Shown here: in pieces, positions 4,654 through 16,943 of the stretch
Position numbering within the stretch: the stretch's first letter is position 1
How the letters are laid out: every line of letters starts with the position of its first letter
Source of the DNA: a virus
Length of the DNA stretch: 35,703 nucleotides
Direction: 5' to 3' (one strand)
IMG/VR virus record: IMGVR_UViG_3300044846_001439
Span: 1 to 35,703 of that record
Made by a program: the position numbers and the translations under genes
The notes under the pieces: generated by a model
Seen by the model: the letters and a program-made list of their open reading frames with translations, nothing else
What the model was told of the DNA's origin: nothing
Database searches by the model: none

Positions 4654-5877
4654 TTATTTGTTTATAATTGATTTGAAAAATTCTACTCTATCTTGACATA
4701 CCTTTTTTAATGAGTATGTATCTTTAACTGTTTCATATAAACGATTACCCATGTCCTCAATCATGTTTGGGTTCTCAATTAATCGTTTCATATGTCTTGC
4801 CCAATCTTTATGATTCTTTTTAGTTCCCACCAATAACGCATTTCCCTTATCGTTAAATTTACCTTCATCTATTGAGGATATTAAATCTATAGTAAATGGA
4901 TCAGTATCACTTGCAATTAATGCTTTTTTATGGAAACCTGCTTCAATGACTTTTAATTGTGATTTATTTGCATTAAATACAGATTCAACCAATGGTGCCA
5001 AAGATATATCAAAAGTATTATAGTTTGTTGCATAACTATTTATTTCTTTTGTCCATCTTCTTCTATATGGTTCGTTTTCATCATCAAATGGAGTTTCCAT
5101 AAACGTACCAAGATATGTCTTATACTCCTCACTTAAGACTTTATAATCGTCAGTAAAGAATTTTTCATATCTAAACCAAACTGTTTCATGTGGTTTAATT
5201 GGTCTATTTCTTCTATTACCTTTCTCATCAATTTCCATAACATTACCTCTTAAATCAAATCCACATAAAACAAATTGAACTTTACCTTTATGTGAATTAT
5301 GTATTGAAGAAATGCCACTTGACATTAATTCTAAATCATGTAAATGAGATGAACCTCCTAACCACCCGAATCTAATTTTATCTGATTTGGTTACGTTCAA
5401 TTTAAATTGTGGTTCTTCATCGTTTACCGCATTTGGAAAAATAATAATGTTTTTAACACCTAACCTTTCTTTAATTGTTTTAGCAAAGATATGGGTTGTT
5501 GTGGAAACATAATCGGCTAATTTAAGTAACTCAATTTTTTTCTCAGCCATTTTAGAAATTTTTATTTGATGGTACATCGGGTGCCTTTGGTCGACAAACC
5601 ATAAATCATCAATGTCCATAATAACTTTAATTCCTTGTTTTTTTAACCATAAAACTCTGTTAACATTATCCTCGTGACTTGTTTGGTGTATAAAACTATG
5701 AAACACAACAATATCGTAGTTTAAAAACGTTTCGTCATCGTTTTCAACATTATATGAAATGTCAACATGAAATTCATCCATGTGATTATCACCAATATAT
5801 TTGTATGGATCCATTATCCTGAATTTACCCACACCATGGGCATCGGACGGAATAGCTAAAATTCTCAATTTTGACAT
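4654..5877 (-). CDS. Glycosyltransferase, GT4-like (GT-B fold)
   Basis: The 407-aa protein shows a glycosyltransferase family 1/4 layout. The N-terminal half has the MDIDDLWF motif (around 90-97) found in many O-antigen or teichoic-type phage and bacterial transferases. The C-terminal half has FGWLGGSSHLHDLELM and a donor-site segment (LAPLVESVFNANKSQLKVIEAGFHKKALIASD region, about 292-323) in which Glu316 could bind the nucleotide sugar. It is the third glycosyltransferase within 6 kb but is not contiguous with the first two. Acceptor unknown. No TATTTATA element is seen immediately upstream. Confidence 0.78.
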   Translation of the reverse strand: MSKLRILAIPSDAHGVGKFRIMDPYKYIGDNHMDEFHVDISYNVENDDETFLNYDIVVFHSFIHQTSHEDNVNRVLWLKKQGIKVIMDIDDLWFVDQRHPMYHQIKISKMAEKKIELLKLADYVSTTTHIFAKTIKERLGVKNIIIFPNAVNDEEPQFKLNVTKSDKIRFGWLGGSSHLHDLELMSSGISSIHNSHKGKVQFVLCGFDLRGNVMEIDEKGNRRNRPIKPHETVWFRYEKFFTDDYKVLSEEYKTYLGTFMETPFDDENEPYRRRWTKEINSYATNYNTFDISLAPLVESVFNANKSQLKVIEAGFHKKALIASDTDPFTIDLISSIDEGKFNDKGNALLVGTKKNHKDWARHMKRLIENPNMIEDMGNRLYETVKDTYSLKKVCQDRVEFFKSIINK

Positions 5878-10514: not shown

Positions 10515-11318
10515 ATGGCAGGGAAAAAAATAACAGAATTATCTAGCTCAATTGCACCAAGCATGACGGGAGTAACCGTTGTTGCATATGGTGGTACAAC
10601 ATATAAATCAACATTATCAACACTTAGACAAACTTTGGTTGATAGTGGGTCACACAGATTCACTGGTAGTCAATTTATTAGTGGTAGCCTAACATTAACA
10701 GGGTCTATGCCTAATTTAACCGTGGGTAGTGGAACATATCATACCGACAATCCTGAAATTTTACACGTACAGAATAGTGGTAGTTTTAATATTGCACATT
10801 TTGAAGCTGATAACCAATATTATGCACAGATAAACATAAAAAACACTAATTCTGGAAATAACTCAAGTACTGATTTGGTTTTAACGGCAGACAATGGTAC
10901 CGAAACCAATCATTATATTGATTTAGGTATAAATTCATCCACATATACTGGCGGTTTAGTTGGTTTAGAGAATGATGCATATCTATTGAATGTTGGTAAA
11001 GATTTATATGTTGGTACTGTTGGTGGAATAAATCATCCGGCTAATTTAAAATTATTTGCTCAAAATTCATGGGAAAATCCACAGATATTGATTAGTGGGT
11101 CTCGTCAAATTTCTTTTAATACTGGTTCTGTAAGTTCAGGTTTCACTTACGAATTTAGTGGAAGTATTAAGTCTAACCATAATATTAATAACAACGGGTT
11201 TACCATTTTGACAAGTGTAACGTCAAGTTTTGTTAATGATACTGAAGCTGCAGCTGGTGGGGTACCATTACAAGGACTTTATAGAAGTGGTAGTTTTGTA
11301 TTAATTAGATTAACGTAA
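10515..11318 (+). CDS. Probable tail fibre or appendage protein, Gly/Ser-rich beta structure
   Basis: The 267-aa product is rich in short Gly-Ser beta repeats (RFTGSQFISGSLTLTGS, GSGTYHTDN, LISGSRQISFNTGSVSSG), as in trimeric phage fibres and decorations. Residues ~25-110 and ~190-240 carry most of this pattern; the centre is Asn/Gly-rich. No catalytic motif or intramolecular chaperone is visible. The ATG is only 3 nt after a TATTTATT element (10504-10511) and 13 nt after the stop of the preceding gene. Fibre identity is an inference from composition and neighbours. Confidence 0.5.
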   Translation: MAGKKITELSSSIAPSMTGVTVVAYGGTTYKSTLSTLRQTLVDSGSHRFTGSQFISGSLTLTGSMPNLTVGSGTYHTDNPEILHVQNSGSFNIAHFEADNQYYAQINIKNTNSGNNSSTDLVLTADNGTETNHYIDLGINSSTYTGGLVGLENDAYLLNVGKDLYVGTVGGINHPANLKLFAQNSWENPQILISGSRQISFNTGSVSSGFTYEFSGSIKSNHNINNNGFTILTSVTSSFVNDTEAAAGGVPLQGLYRSGSFVLIRLT

Positions 11319-11792: not shown

Positions 11793-14696
11793 ATGAAAGA
11801 GGTTATCTCTCAGGAAGTTATAGAAGGCTTCCTTAACGGTGGCGACGATGAAATGTATATCGTCGGTGTTGAATACGACTACCCCACCAACACAATTTAC
11901 AAAATTATTCAGGACCCCGAAAAGGGAAAGATTGTAAAATCAGATTCATTTACTCCATTTATGTGGGTTGGTGATTTATCAGGTTTAGGTTTTTACAATA
12001 ATTCAAAATCCATACAAAAAAAACGTATGGGTGAATTTGGTATTTTAATTGAAAAATTAGATACTCATGGTGATGAACGACTTGAATCGGGTATGAAATA
12101 TTTGGTAAAAAGTCTTAAATCATATACCGATTTAATTTCATTTTTCAGAATGGGTGGTATTAATCCGTGGGATGAAAAATATAGACAACACTTTACGGTT
12201 TTATCACCAGTAGAACAATATCTTGTTCAAACGAAAAAAAGATTATTTAAGGGTATTGATGAATATTCAGGTGTTAATAGATTTGTATTTGATATTGAAA
12301 CCACAGGTCTTGATCCTGAAACTTGTGTTATCATATTGATTGGGGTTAAAGATAATCGTGGTTTAAACATAACAATTCCTGCCTTTGGGGAAGATGGAGA
12401 AAAAAAATGTATTGAAAGATTTTTTCAATATATAAGGGATTTAAAACCAACAATTATTGCTGGATACAACTCCGCATTTTTTGACTGGCCATTCATATTA
12501 AAACGTGCACAAATTCTTGGTGTTGATGTTGATGGAATGACTCAAATTTTCACGTCTCAAGGAATGAAAGAGAAAGAGGGAATGTTAAAATTGGCAAATG
12601 AAGTTGAGCCATATAAACAACATATCATTTGGGGATTTAATATTATTGATATTGCACATTCTGTTCGTAGAGCACAAGCAATTAACTCAGAGATTAAGTC
12701 TTGGGGTTTGAAATATATCACAACATATTTGGAGAAAGAAAAACCTAATCGTGTGTATGTTGAGGGTAGTAAAATTTCAAAGATATATCTTGATAATGAA
12801 AGTTATTATGTGAATCCAAAAACGGGTGGATATAAACAAATAGGTGAACCGGGTACTGAGGATTTATTAAAAAAATATCCAGGTAAGTTTGAAATATGGC
12901 CAGGTAGAAAAATTGTAGAACAATATCTTGACGATGACTTGTATGAGACAATGGTTGTAGATGATTCATTCTCTCAATCCACATTCTTACTTTCAAAACT
13001 TGTACCTACAACGTATGAAAGAATTGCCACCATGGGTACTGCGACGTTATGGAAAATTATCATGTTAGCATGGTCTTACGAAAATAATTTAGCTGTACCA
13101 TCTAAAGATGAGAAACGAGCATTTACAGGAGGATTATCTCGTTTATTAAATGTTGGTTACGCAAAGAACATTGTGAAGTTTGACTACTCATCACTTTACC
13201 CATCTATTCAATTAGTATATGATGTGTTTCCTGCTTGTGATGTAATGGGTGTACAGAAATCGATGTTAAAGTATTTCCGTAACATTCGTATTAAGTACAA
13301 ACACCTCGCGGGTGAATTAAAAGATAGTAATCCTGTTGCGTCAGAAATGTACGACCGTAAACAATTACCAATTAAGATTTTCATTAACGCTTACTTTGGT
13401 TCATTATCCGCACCTCACGTATTTCCTTGGGGTGAAATGGATTCAGGTGAAACCATTACGTGTATTGGTCGTCAGTGTTTACGTATGATGATTATGTTCT
13501 ACATGCAAAAAGGTTACAAACCTCTTGTGATGGATACGGATGGTGTAAACTTTGAAACTCCTGAAAGTGCAAAAGATGCTGTGTATGTTGGTAAAGGATT
13601 AAATGAATTAGTTAAAGAAGGTAAAGAATATTTTGGTATTGAAGCACATACTGCTGAGTTTAATGATTTATTCATGAGGGGTGAGATGGGACTTGATATT
13701 GACTACACCGCACCAGCTTGTATTAATGTATCCCGTAAGAATTATATTATTAAATTAATAAAGAAAGGTAAGGAGAAAATTAAATTAACAGGTAATACTA
13801 TTAAATCAAAAAAATTACAAACTTACATTGTTGAATTCTTAGATGAAGGATTAAAATATTTGTTAAATGGTGATGGGCATTCATTCGTGGAATTATATTA
13901 TAACTATGTTGAGAAAATCTACAATAAAGAAATACCATTATCAAAAATAGCAAATAAAGCTCGTGTTAAACAATCTATTAATGAATATAAAAAACACGTA
14001 CAAAAAACAACTAAGTCAGGTTCTTTAATGTCAAGACAAGCACATATGGAACTAATAATTCAAAATGATTATCCCGCTGGTTTAGGTGATACGATTTATT
14101 ATGTTAACAATGGCATAAAAAAATCATCTGGTGATGTTGAAAGAAAAACTAGATGGACAAAAAAAGAGATGATTGAGTATGTTGAAAAAATGGGCGAGGA
14201 GATGCCAAAGGATTATGCCGTTATAAATGTCAATTGTTATATGATTGACGAAAAGGAAATTACGAATAATCCTGATTTAAAGGGTGATTATAATGTTCCT
14301 CGTTATTTAAGTAATTTCAATAAACGTGTTGAACCTTTATTAGTTGCGTTTAATCCAAACATTAGAGAAGACATTCTTATAGAAGATCCAAAGGATAGAC
14401 AATATTTTACCAAATTACAATGTGAACTTGTTAATGGTTATCCATTAAAAGAAAGTGGACAAGATAAATTTGATGAGGTAATGACACTTTCAGACAGTGA
14501 AGTTATTTTTTGGAATAGAGTGGGTCGTGATCCTTATTTCATGTATGTTGAAGATAGTTTAAAATTGGTTGACCAAAACTGGGTTGAACATAATAGAAAA
14601 GTATTATCACTACAAGCTGAAAGTACTATTAGTAATGAAGATGAAATTATTGAAAACAATAATCACGATTATGCATTTCATGCAATCGAAAGTTAA
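11793..14696 (+). CDS. Family B DNA polymerase with 3'-5' exonuclease (gp43-like)
   Basis: The 967-aa protein carries Exo I FDIETTGLD (Asp167, Glu169), Exo II AGYNSAFFDWPF, and Exo III in QYLDDDLYETMVVD. The polymerase motifs are A FDYSSLYPSI (Asp464), B KIFINAYFGSLS (Lys528) and C VMDTDGVNF (Asp581, Asp583). Motif C has Gly where most family members have Ser (DTDS). The A-to-B spacing of ~64 residues is shorter than in T4-type gp43 and closer to compact cellular B polymerases, so the fingers look short. It replicates the phage genome in the host cytoplasm. The leader (11702-11792) has two small hairpins. The first ~35 codons are richer in C-ending codons than the rest. Confidence 0.93.
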   Translation: MKEVISQEVIEGFLNGGDDEMYIVGVEYDYPTNTIYKIIQDPEKGKIVKSDSFTPFMWVGDLSGLGFYNNSKSIQKKRMGEFGILIEKLDTHGDERLESGMKYLVKSLKSYTDLISFFRMGGINPWDEKYRQHFTVLSPVEQYLVQTKKRLFKGIDEYSGVNRFVFDIETTGLDPETCVIILIGVKDNRGLNITIPAFGEDGEKKCIERFFQYIRDLKPTIIAGYNSAFFDWPFILKRAQILGVDVDGMTQIFTSQGMKEKEGMLKLANEVEPYKQHIIWGFNIIDIAHSVRRAQAINSEIKSWGLKYITTYLEKEKPNRVYVEGSKISKIYLDNESYYVNPKTGGYKQIGEPGTEDLLKKYPGKFEIWPGRKIVEQYLDDDLYETMVVDDSFSQSTFLLSKLVPTTYERIATMGTATLWKIIMLAWSYENNLAVPSKDEKRAFTGGLSRLLNVGYAKNIVKFDYSSLYPSIQLVYDVFPACDVMGVQKSMLKYFRNIRIKYKHLAGELKDSNPVASEMYDRKQLPIKIFINAYFGSLSAPHVFPWGEMDSGETITCIGRQCLRMMIMFYMQKGYKPLVMDTDGVNFETPESAKDAVYVGKGLNELVKEGKEYFGIEAHTAEFNDLFMRGEMGLDIDYTAPACINVSRKNYIIKLIKKGKEKIKLTGNTIKSKKLQTYIVEFLDEGLKYLLNGDGHSFVELYYNYVEKIYNKEIPLSKIANKARVKQSINEYKKHVQKTTKSGSLMSRQAHMELIIQNDYPAGLGDTIYYVNNGIKKSSGDVERKTRWTKKEMIEYVEKMGEEMPKDYAVINVNCYMIDEKEITNNPDLKGDYNVPRYLSNFNKRVEPLLVAFNPNIREDILIEDPKDRQYFTKLQCELVNGYPLKESGQDKFDEVMTLSDSEVIFWNRVGRDPYFMYVEDSLKLVDQNWVEHNRKVLSLQAESTISNEDEIIENNNHDYAFHAIES

Positions 14697-15325
14697 TCAA
14701 TAGTTGGAAATAGAATGGATGTCATAAATTGTTTTGCTCTATCCTCTCCGAGTTTAGCTTTTAAAACATTATACGTCCTTTCATTTTTTTGTTGATGTTC
14801 ACAGTATTTGTTTTGACCTATTTTAATATCATTAACTAAATTAAGGTTCGTTTCTGCAACTGATAGTAACTCAATATATTCTTCAAAACTTCTTATTGCA
14901 ATATTTGCCATTATTTGAAATTCATCATCGTTGGGTACAATAGCGATTGCGTCTTTTGAAAATATAACTTTAGCCCATTCGGGTAAATTGTAAGGAGTCT
15001 TAAAATCATATGGTGAAACATATGTATCATTACTAAGAACAGGACTCCAATCTAAAAACGATGCTAAACACTTATTAGGAGTTGTAATAATATCAAACCC
15101 AAATATCGGTTCTGGATTAAGGTTACTTGGAAAACATGTAAAATGTAAGACTTCTAAATTTTTATCACTATATCTTTCAATATGTGCAATTCTGAATACA
15201 TCAGAAATAAATCTACGGTTATCCCACCCAAAATCTTCTGTCGGTATTTTTACTCCGTCACAACTTTCAAGAATTATTTTTTCAAAATTATTTGCAACCC
15301 TATCTAGTGTTTCTTTATAATTCAT
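14693..15325 (-). CDS. Ferredoxin-dependent bilin reductase (PcyA/PcyX/PebS family)
   Basis: The 210-aa product matches the FDBR family along most of its length: LEVLHFTCFP with His61, FGFDII with Asp78, DWSPVL, LPEWAKVIFS, and the C-terminal GQNKYCEHQQKNERT and MTSILF blocks. His61 and Asp78 are 17 residues apart, as are the catalytic His88 and Asp105 of cyanobacterial PcyA; a His at this place points to a PcyA/PcyX-type rather than PebS/PebA-type enzyme. The PcyA Asp220/Lys221 pair is conservatively changed to Glu182/Arg183. These enzymes reduce biliverdin IX-alpha with electrons from ferredoxin to phycocyanobilin or phycoerythrobilin. The gene overlaps the heme oxygenase gene by 11 nt, forming a heme-to-bilin pair. 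The product made cannot be told from sequence. It is somewhat shorter than the usual 230-250 aa. Confidence 0.87.
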   Translation of the reverse strand: MNYKETLDRVANNFEKIILESCDGVKIPTEDFGWDNRRFISDVFRIAHIERYSDKNLEVLHFTCFPSNLNPEPIFGFDIITTPNKCLASFLDWSPVLSNDTYVSPYDFKTPYNLPEWAKVIFSKDAIAIVPNDDEFQIMANIAIRSFEEYIELLSVAETNLNLVNDIKIGQNKYCEHQQKNERTYNVLKAKLGEDRAKQFMTSILFPTID

Positions 15326-15815
15326 TTAAAATATTAATAATAAATTCAAATCCTTTATTAACTTCATCAGACCATTCATCTTTTTGTACAGCACGAATAG
15401 AACCAACACATTCCATCATATTATTAAAGTCATACATTTTTCCTGAACCCGGAACTTTTGTTTTTATCATTTGACCACCGTAAACTAATGCCAAATAATT
15501 TAAATAAACATGTGGTAATATTTGCTCATCATTTAAAGATTGTAAATAAACACCATATTCTTTAGTTGATTCTAAATGTAATGTCTTGTAATTAACTTCG
15601 GATTCTAATTCTTTAATATCGTCAAATATTTTACTCTCTCTAGCTAAATCTAAATGTGGTAACTTATGTTGTTCAATAATTGTAAAGATTACAGATTGTT
15701 GATATAGGTAATTTAAGTATTCATTTTTACTTAATTCACCTTTAATCATTTTTTGATTAAACTCCATTTTTTCAGCCTTGCTGTGAAGTTCTGCGGTTGA
15801 TTCTCTTAAATTCAT
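15315..15815 (-). CDS. Heme oxygenase (short phage form)
   Basis: The 166-aa product has the classical heme-oxygenase start LRESTAELHSKAEKMEF with proximal His11, and the distal-helix segment VYLNYLALVYGGQMI with Gly113-Gly114-Gln115. The enzyme opens heme to biliverdin, CO and free iron using reduced ferredoxin. Aligned to human HO-1, the Gly139/Asp140 pair becomes Ala109/Leu110, so the Asp that orders the distal water is missing; plant enzymes also lack it. The protein is much shorter than the ~230 aa of cyanobacterial HO1, with the middle shortened but the C-terminal helix kept. It starts 12 nt after the neck-like gene and overlaps the bilin reductase by 11 nt, so all three are probably one transcript. 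Confidence 0.85.
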   Translation of the reverse strand: MNLRESTAELHSKAEKMEFNQKMIKGELSKNEYLNYLYQQSVIFTIIEQHKLPHLDLARESKIFDDIKELESEVNYKTLHLESTKEYGVYLQSLNDEQILPHVYLNYLALVYGGQMIKTKVPGSGKMYDFNNMMECVGSIRAVQKDEWSDEVNKGFEFIINILNEL

Positions 15816-15827
15816 AATGTAATATAC

Positions 15828-16943
15828 TTAAATTACATTGAATGGTGAAGGCATTGCTCTAAATTTAAGTGCTTTATTAAGATTTTCAGCTTCTCCCGCC
15901 TTTCTTTCAAGTATCTTGTCAGGACGAAGTCTTTCTAATCTAGCCATTAATTCTTCTATTGCTTTTGATTTTTCGTCTTTACCTTCGGTTATTAGACTTG
16001 AATAGTCTAATTTAATAGAACTATCAGGAACTTGTAAATCCCCCGAAAATTTACCCCAAATACGTCCTAAACCCTCTTTAGAATATCCAATAAGGTATTT
16101 TCTAACCCAGTTTTGAGAAGGTTTGTTTAATTTGTCCCAAGTAAGTTCCTCAGTCATTACATCAGATGGTAATTTAATTACATCTTTGTTTTTTGTTAAA
16201 CAAGTGTCTCTATCCATAGTATCGTAATACCAATACCATACTTGATAGTTTTTATTAGCATTATTACCAAAATCATACTTACCTCCAGGTACGTTATATA
16301 GATGGATTAATTTTTTCCCTTCAGGTCCCGCGGTAATTCTATATGTTAAATCCCCACCGATTATTCTATTTTTAATACTTCTATCTTGCATTCTTAAAAG
16401 AAGGTCAAATGCTGGTAACATAAAATATGAACCAGAAGAACCAACTTGAGCAAAACCACCTACACCACCAAAACCAACACCCCCAAGTCCACCAAAACCA
16501 CCTAAAAATGGGTCAACAATAGAATCTGTCAACTCCGCTCTTGTAAACCATAATAGTTCGTTTATTTCACGACCAGCGGGTATTTCATAGGTTTGTGTAC
16601 CACCTGTAAGGGTGAAGTAATCTTTTTTCATTTCATTGTCACCACCAGCTTGTAAACCAACTATTTTAGAATATGAATAGGTATATTGCGTTTCATAATC
16701 TAAACTTCTTGTTGTGAACGCTCTAGAAAGAGATTGTGTATCAACGTCTAATCCGGCCAATGACGACCATTGGGATTCAATTAACCAATCACTAACATAT
16801 TGTTCATATTCAGATAAGGAAAGTTCTAAAAAAGTATCCATTTGTTCCTCAGTAAGTTCGATACCACGAACAGGCATCCCTAATAGGTGAAAAACCTGTG
16901 TATATAATTTGTCCTTTTCAGATTGTGAAATAATTGTTGCCAT
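15828..16943 (-). CDS. Probable neck/head-completion protein (T4 gp13-like)
   Basis: The 371-aa product has an N-terminal helical domain (ELTEEQMDTFLELSLSEYEQYV), a Gly-rich flexible insert (GGFGGLGGVGFGGVGG around 149-164), a beta-rich centre, and a C-terminal part with WVRKYLIGYSKEGLGRIWGKF, VPDSSIKLDYSSLITEG and a coiled-coil-like helix (KAIEELMARLERLRP). The last part resembles the neck protein gp13 of T4-related phages. Neck proteins close the packaged head and join it to the tail. A TATTTATT element is 15 nt upstream (16959-16966). It is the promoter-proximal gene of the unit that contains the heme oxygenase and bilin reductase. Confidence 0.55.
   Translation of the reverse strand: MATIISQSEKDKLYTQVFHLLGMPVRGIELTEEQMDTFLELSLSEYEQYVSDWLIESQWSSLAGLDVDTQSLSRAFTTRSLDYETQYTYSYSKIVGLQAGGDNEMKKDYFTLTGGTQTYEIPAGREINELLWFTRAELTDSIVDPFLGGFGGLGGVGFGGVGGFAQVGSSGSYFMLPAFDLLLRMQDRSIKNRIIGGDLTYRITAGPEGKKLIHLYNVPGGKYDFGNNANKNYQVWYWYYDTMDRDTCLTKNKDVIKLPSDVMTEELTWDKLNKPSQNWVRKYLIGYSKEGLGRIWGKFSGDLQVPDSSIKLDYSSLITEGKDEKSKAIEELMARLERLRPDKILERKAGEAENLNKALKFRAMPSPFNVI

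Follow-up and report, generated by a model that had tools for sequence, protein, structure and literature searches.

The window analysed here is the entire 35.7-kb virus record IMGVR_UViG_3300044846_001439 (35,703 nucleotides), which may be a fragment, as is often the case with such records. Two adjacent genes on its minus strand encode a heme oxygenase-fold protein (HO) and a ferredoxin-dependent bilin reductase (FDBR). We read them as a phage-borne two-enzyme cassette that would convert heme to biliverdin and biliverdin to phycocyanobilin (PCB), with a Bacteroidota host being likely, and we place the probability of this reading at about 0.64. Its basis lies in the family and fold of both proteins, the catalytic triad of the FDBR, the pairing of the two genes and the selection acting on them. 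The features of the cassette are as follows.

15315..15815, minus strand: heme oxygenase-fold protein (HO), 166 amino acids, from Pfam PF01126, an AlphaFold model and residue mapping
14693..15325, minus strand: ferredoxin-dependent bilin reductase (FDBR), PcyA-type by its triad, 210 amino acids, from PF05996 and an AlphaFold model
15315..15325, minus strand: overlap of the end of the HO gene with the start of the FDBR gene, 11 nucleotides

The original prediction, which was made from the letters alone, described the 11-nucleotide overlap and quoted short motifs from both proteins, and the coordinates and translations agree with it. Its assignment of the proteins to the HO and FDBR families was borne out by profile searches that place both above the Pfam cut-offs: the HO scores 48.7 bits with PF01126 (Heme_oxygenase; cut-off 23, E = 1e-12) and the FDBR scores 84.9 bits with PF05996 (Fe_bilin_red; cut-off 31, E = 8.7e-24).

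The AlphaFold model of the FDBR has a mean predicted local distance difference test (pLDDT) score of 94.7, and its top structural match is Nostoc PcyA (VIA Z 27.0, root-mean-square deviation (rmsd) 1.9, 208 residues aligned). The match with PcyX gave a Z of 20.2 over 170 residues, but the PcyX chain has only 181 residues and this Z is not directly comparable with that of PcyA. Residues His61 and Asp78 had been predicted to correspond to PcyA His88 and Asp105; the alignment agrees and adds Glu50 at the position of PcyA Glu76, so that the full triad is present. Glu76, His88 and Asp105 are essential for PcyA, and Ile86 is important (PMC9800206). The gain of Glu76 has been tied to PCB synthesis, with PcyX and pre-PcyA enzymes lacking this residue (PMC10151467), and the product of PcyX is phycoerythrobilin (PMC11480375). 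The mark of PcyX, an aspartate at the Glu76 site (Asp55 in PcyX), was not found in the window FDBR, where Glu50 occupies that site. PCB is predicted to be its product because its clade keeps Glu76, His88 and Asp105, whereas position 76 is Asp in PcyX, and because published work ties Glu76 to PCB and describes a phage FDBR without the PcyX Asp55 that makes PCB. In a PDB sequence search the top match was PcyX_EBK42635 (4.1e-23), followed by PcyA (1.3e-16). The PcyX identity suggested by that top match is ruled out by Glu, not Asp, at position 76 together with the rooted tree described below. As to the placement of the FDBR among PcyA and PcyX enzymes, a question raised with the original prediction, the protein is PcyA-type by Glu76 and not PcyX-type, and the phylogeny puts its clade as sister to PcyX.

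A PDB search with the single HO sequence gave a weak top match to a D136A mutant chain of HmuO (1.6e-4), and a 13-sequence profile reached 3.4e-11 with matches to HmuO, HO-1 and HO-2. The AlphaFold model (pLDDT 92.6) aligns with rat HO-1 over 165 residues (VIA Z 19.6, rmsd 2.6) and the proximal His11 is kept, so family, fold and proximal ligand all agree with a heme oxygenase. The distal side of the pocket is altered: Tyr58, Arg136, Gly139 and Asp140 of HO-1/HmuO are replaced by Phe44, Asn106, Ala109 and Leu110. The GGQMI motif, which the original prediction treated as diagnostic of a normal HO, cannot carry that meaning with these four residues missing, and biliverdin formation is not to be assumed. 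Tyr58, Arg136 and Asp140 belong to one hydrogen-bond network in HO and the D140A variant of human HO-1 becomes a peroxidase (PMC5623701); D140H costs much of the HO activity (PMC7948506), and a title cited in PMC5623701 assigns control over oxygenase versus peroxidase activity to the G139 region. Plant HOs are active without the same Arg and Asp; their distal helix carries Ala and His, and they use a different network (PMC7948506). The activity of the window HO is plausible, yet not assured, because loss of Asp140 can yield a peroxidase while a plant HO works through another network.

Relatives of the cassette were collected from viral contigs. A first FDBR scan gave 13 loci, and the HO was observed upstream of the FDBR in 13/13. 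Five of these (L002, L003, L004, L005 and L012) have the window backbone and the cassette in the corresponding place, the contigs of L003 and L004 being near-identical; the remaining loci carry it at other places in other backbones, several of which are mutually related. Wider scans gave 28 loci from an FDBR alignment, 80 kept of 270 from an HO alignment and 80 kept of 194 from Mosig PcyX. The scan patterns were seeded from both classes described below, and mixed cassettes could escape them. FDBRs shorter than 180 and HOs shorter than 130 amino acids were excluded, identical sequences were counted once, and script-called open reading frames (ORFs) begin at the first ATG or the edge of a stretch.

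Among the 149 unique FDBRs, His88 and Asp105 were present in every sequence, and the groups differ at residues 76 and 86. Glu76 with Val86 was found in 43 viral sequences, the window included (hereafter clade A); Asp76 with Met86, the PcyX type, in 89; and Glu76 with Ile86 in 15 cyanobacterial PcyA, while the cyanophage P-SSM4 PcyA has Glu and Val and locus L183 has Ser and Met. Residue 76 is itself the criterion for the two classes, so that its uniformity within each of them is no result; the actual tests are that clade A forms a single clade without intruders and that the HO residues track it. An HO could be read in 118 cassettes. All 43 HOs of the Glu class keep the proximal His and have the distal network replaced: Tyr58 became Phe in 42 and His in 1, Arg136 became Asn in 40 and His in 3, Gly139 became Ala, and Asp140 became Leu in 23 and Ile in 20. 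In contrast, PcyX-type HOs have Tyr58, Arg136 and Asp140 in 74/74, with Gly in 72 and Ala in 2 at the Gly139 site; three of the 74 show a gap at the proximal-His column. The two classes are separated at 85% or better on each side by eight HO positions: F44, L105, N106, Y107 and A109, which belong to the distal network or adjoin it, and three others. Positions kept in at least 97% of the HOs include His11, Glu48, His102, Gly113, Gly114 and Gln115.

Clade A was recovered as a single clade in the FDBR trees, with a support of 0.93 in the first tree and 97 in the rooted tree; in the HO tree, clade A and L183 form one clade (0.994). An initial idea that clade A groups with cyanobacterial PcyA was rejected, as the three unrooted groups of the first tree only show that PcyX is one clade. 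It is the tree with the outgroup that places clade A: with PebA/PebB as root, its sister group is PcyX together with L183 (96), and it does not fall within cyanobacterial PcyA. The 15 cyanobacterial PcyA group by themselves (94), and the P-SSM4 PcyA also lies outside clade A and PcyX. This tree contains 44 sequences of the PcyX type, including a random draw of 20, and its sampling of PcyA excludes the alphaproteobacterial and green-algal enzymes; alphaproteobacterial PcyA has been reported in one lineage with PcyX (PMC10151467). The outgroup is a plasmid PebA/PebB pair, the four cyanobacterial genomes searched having given only their known PcyA, one match each. The L183 cassette (FDBR Ser76; HO Phe/Asn/Gly/Met; 45% GC) is intermediate and fits neither class, since the FDBR falls with PcyX and the HO with clade A; it is possibly an evolutionary link. 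Because clade A forms one clade in both the FDBR and HO trees, the coupling of FDBR and HO classes may reflect one split followed by exchange within classes rather than repeated co-evolution.

An HO lies near the FDBR in 43/43 clade-A neighbourhoods (4-kb flanks). The two genes overlap in nearly all the clade-A-type loci listed, the exception being L158 where they are 254 nucleotides apart, and translation of HO and FDBR is likely to be coupled through the 11-nucleotide overlap. A third linked gene was sought and rejected, the widest family after HO and FDBR occurring in only 16/43 neighbourhoods. In pairs at least 80% identical in amino acids, the ratio of nonsynonymous to synonymous polymorphism (pN/pS) is 0.05-0.34, which indicates purifying selection; more distant pairs reach up to 0.63 with silent sites near saturation. 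Chance or decayed ORFs are ruled out by the family scores and pN/pS, and the recurrence of both genes in all 13 loci of the first scan also speaks against chance. We noticed that HO and FDBR alleles have been exchanged separately. For example, the window and L002 share 84% identity in the FDBR and 60% in the HO, L101 and L103 share 96% and 67%, while L002 and L012 share 58% in the FDBR and 86% in the HO, and L085 and L091 share 66% and 91%. L002 looks like an HO/FDBR recombinant. Four backbone proteins of L012 are 71-92% identical to those of the window (a fifth 46%), yet its HO is only 58% and its FDBR 57% identical, which points to replacement of the cassette at one unchanged position. A species-genome scan with two patterns showed no cellular source of clade A: 31 stretches matched and 13 encode a relative, all of them cyanobacterial PcyA at 27-30% identity. 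In plasmids no HO was found, and the single weak match is annotated as PebB.

Other genes were searched in 14 clade-A records, several of which are fragments and two of which span 176 and 209 kb. No match was found in them to Photo_RC (psbA/psbD), CpeT, PHY, Fer2 (ferredoxin) or 5-ALA synthase (TIGR01821); the search for phytochrome and ferredoxin genes suggested alongside the original prediction thus came back empty for these records. The pelagiphage Mosig does carry a Fer2 protein.

Phage HO-FDBR cassettes outside cyanophages have been published previously, in marine PcyX phages, in Mosig and in the freshwater phage CB_2 (Crystal_bog_pmoC-phage_2) (PMC11480375). The claim that the pathway lies outside the classical cyanophage setting is upheld in that an HO-FDBR pair occurs in a T4-like phage unlike classical cyanophages, but such a setting is not new. 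CB_2, which we compared by its published description, resembles the window in being a freshwater phage with an HO and FDBR cassette; its FDBR, which lacks the PcyX Asp55, makes PCB and its HO was shown to be active (PMC11480375). It differs from clade A in its proposed Methylocystis host and in carrying a 5-ALA synthase, for which the 14 clade-A records gave no match. PcyX_EBK42635 and Mosig have proteins of the same families, their FDBRs forming a sister clade, and Mosig shares the HO-FDBR order and a T4-like phage background. The PcyX cassettes differ in having Asp at the Glu76 site and phycoerythrobilin as product, and Mosig in that its HO keeps Tyr, Arg and Asp and the phage uses Shine-Dalgarno (SD) sites (14/18). 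In Mosig (L017 3497-8582), the run of genes that holds HO and PcyX also includes four annotated as 2OG-Fe(II) oxygenases and one putative ferrochelatase. Cyanobacterial and cyanophage PcyA share the catalytic triad, but the cyanophage enzymes are only 24-31% identical to the window FDBR, clade A stands apart from both in the tree, and the P-SSM4 pcyA has no adjoining HO. In plant-type HO-1, too, Arg136 and Asp140 are absent and an Ala neighbours the 140 site of the distal helix; at the 140 site itself, plants have His, with another hydrogen-bond network, where the phage HOs have Leu or Ile (PMC7948506). What is new, by residue and tree comparison, is a clade of 43 distinct viral Glu76 FDBRs paired with HOs that lack the distal network. 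A literature search, covering abstracts, text passages and few subscription papers, returned no cassette with this HO pocket or host and none in Bacteroidota or Flavobacterium phages; the main text of PMC12619734, on large and mostly Bacteroidota-infecting phages, has no words beginning with heme or bilin.

The cassette is flanked by the following genes.

15828..16943, minus strand: head-tail connector (neck-like) gene, PHROG 211 head-tail adaptor (E 5.7e-8), with CTATTTA at -24 of its start
11793..14696, plus strand: family B DNA polymerase (PF03104 and PF00136), convergent with the cassette; a flank outside the system

The neck-like gene is located 12 nucleotides upstream of the HO gene on the same strand, and it probably shares one late transcript with the cassette. 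Glycosyltransferase-like genes were also seen in the window at 59-838 (above the Pfam cut-off), 835-1902 and 4654-5877 (both below). Among the relatives, G007 (176 kb) has a cluster of 23 tRNA genes at C1:14352-21309; the numbers for G012 and G005 are 19 and 17.

We consider it likely that the window lineage has a Bacteroidota host. SD-like sites precede 22/426 ORFs in 42 clade-A loci versus 419/737 in 87 PcyX-type loci, and 1/28 in the window (the rate in coding sequence being 0.11); ribosomes of Bacteroidia do not recognise SD sites (PMC9976891). The controls gave 1/46 for the Flavobacterium phage immuto, 3/31 for Cellulophaga phi14:2, 3/21 for a Salinibacter phage, 3/14 for crAss001, 18/54 for P-SSM4, 14/35 for Mel-JY01 and 14/18 for Mosig. 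The motif TTG-n-TAnnTTTG, which we take to be the Bacteroidota-type promoter consensus, was found in 7/169 cases in G007, 5/176 in G012, 4/51 in G009, 2/115 in G005 and 2/85 in G010, with 0.8, 0.7, 0.1, 0.1 and 0.2 expected. A second motif, CTATTTA, was counted in the 100 nucleotides upstream of ORFs, with expectations from shuffling: 5/29 in the window (0.4 expected), 5/42 in G001 (0.9), 4/41 in G003 (1.1), 6/51 in G013 (0.8) and, in common with these, 9/49 in immuto (0.6); the controls gave 1/56 in P-SSM4 (0.9), 1/18 in Mosig (0.2) and 2/35 in Mel-JY01 (0.3). In the window it stands 12-24 nucleotides before the starts at 10515+, 16943 (the minus-strand neck gene), 18972+, 25741+ and 27677+. 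CTATTTA is a putative late promoter, possibly a variant of the T4-like one, and is weak as a host mark; our literature search found no paper on a similar late-promoter motif. Furthermore, a TonB-receptor Plug domain was found in 7/25 clade-A-type records (L158 being assigned by its HO alone; the window is not among the seven) versus 0/9 PcyX-type records and 0/4 reference phages. These TonB-dependent receptor genes are in G013 (C1:47710-47973, L014), G012, G014, G015, G017, G018 and G019; the G013 receptor carries a CarboxypepD_reg-like domain, its gene being some 1.5 kb downstream of the FDBR. Seven of the proteins, cut at locus ends, are nearest to B12, SusC/RagA and generic TonB models of NCBIfam, all below cut-off.

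Several observations weigh against such a host. The original prediction had pointed to Bacteroidota-like initiation signals; the scarcity of SD sites was confirmed, but on its own it fails to separate Bacteroidota phages from cyanophages, as S-SM2 (4/26) and Nostoc N1 (4/24) are also near background, and together with the crAss001 count this weakens it as proof. The clade-A-type relative G013 uses SD sites (18/49). TTG-n-TAnnTTTG was absent from the window lineage (0/29 in the window, 0/42 in G001 and 0/41 in G003) and from G008 (0/60) and G013 (0/51), and immuto has just 1/49. Neither crAss001 nor Cellulophaga phi14:2 nor the Salinibacter phage showed CTATTTA, which occurs twice in the 24 ORFs of Nostoc N1 and twice in Mel-JY01. 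The best-covered match of the tail sheath is a protein of the Microcystis phage Mel-JY01. Seven window proteins have a match in four reference phage pieces, where the best is Mel-JY01 for 4, Mosig for 2 (which would include the cassette itself) and immuto for 1.

In the proposed route, for which we infer HO activity, product identity, electron donor, timing and host, the HO would use His11 to bind host heme and open the ring in a reaction that takes O2 and electrons, the latter probably supplied by host ferredoxin, and yields biliverdin, CO and iron; biliverdin would then undergo a four-electron reduction to PCB by the FDBR and host ferredoxin. The host is probably a Bacteroidota bacterium and not a cyanobacterium, and the cassette would probably act late in infection because its genes sit behind the neck gene with its late-promoter-like motif. 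Besides the distal pocket and the rooted tree, further results count against this route: the FDBR does not reach the NCBIfam PcyA equivalog cut-off (NF002760; 86.7 versus 206 bits), and no phage bilin-binding partner was found in the clade-A records searched. Were the genes ordinary cyanophage auxiliary genes, with a cyanobacterial host whose phycobilisomes are fed by PCB, one could point to the tail sheath, best covered by a protein of Microcystis phage Mel-JY01 (84% covered, 31.2% identity; next come an uncultured 484-kb phage and immuto, the latter with 36.7% identity over 32%), to the 23 genes that the 42-kb piece of Mel-JY01 has in common with G007, to a PcyA-like match in 26 cyanophage records, to the low SD use of S-SM2 and Nostoc N1, and to Nostoc, Anabaena or Dolichospermum phages among the records matching the DNA polymerase (7/19). 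The best polymerase matches are, however, Salinibacter phages (10/19), and the lack of Photo_RC and CpeT matches in the 14 clade-A records, some of them fragments, the Bacteroidota-type promoters and TonB-dependent receptors of relatives, and the distance of the FDBR from cyanophage and cyanobacterial PcyA make this explanation rather improbable.

It is also unlikely, in our judgement, that the HO-fold protein no longer forms biliverdin and instead serves a heme-binding, peroxidase-like or regulatory role, the FDBR using biliverdin from a host HO. The replaced distal residues in 43/43 clade-A HOs, the clustering of class-separating positions around them, the peroxidase behaviour of human D140A and the cited title on the G139 region all speak for such a role, whereas the retained proximal His and fold, the constant presence of the HO beside an FDBR with an intact triad and the plant HOs that work without Arg and Asp speak for an oxygenase. 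Iron or heme turnover could be the selected function, with the HO freeing iron late in infection and the FDBR just removing biliverdin; this is compatible with the chemistry proposed above and is a possibility to which we give somewhat less than even odds. The TonB-dependent receptors, including that close to the G013 cassette, the discussion of iron supply in PMC11480375 and the lack of PHY and CpeT matches in the 14 records would fit it. However, residue 76 tracks the clades (Glu in 43/43 of clade A; Asp in 44/45 of the PcyX clade in the rooted tree), a hint that it matters which product is made, although such a residue is retained in any active enzyme, and the putative ferrochelatase near the Mosig cassette would consume iron. 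The three roles named in the original prediction, namely supply of a phytochrome chromophore, iron release and redox protection, are not separable by sequence.

Under the reading that we prefer, the cassette would be a further type in probable Bacteroidota phages, with PCB-type chemistry. The reason why bilin genes occur in phages of non-photosynthetic bacteria has been called 'still enigmatic' (PMC11480375), and this cassette would make the question testable in another host phylum. Tentatively, and at less than even odds, clade A may represent an HO subfamily in which O2 activation and proton delivery work without the Tyr-Arg-Asp network and which has been kept with a PCB-forming reductase. 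Phages of non-photosynthetic Bacteroidota would then make PCB although their hosts have no known use for the pigment; it may load an unrecognised bilin-binding sensor late in infection. The HO itself is a natural experiment in which the entire distal network including Asp140 is gone, yet purifying selection holds.

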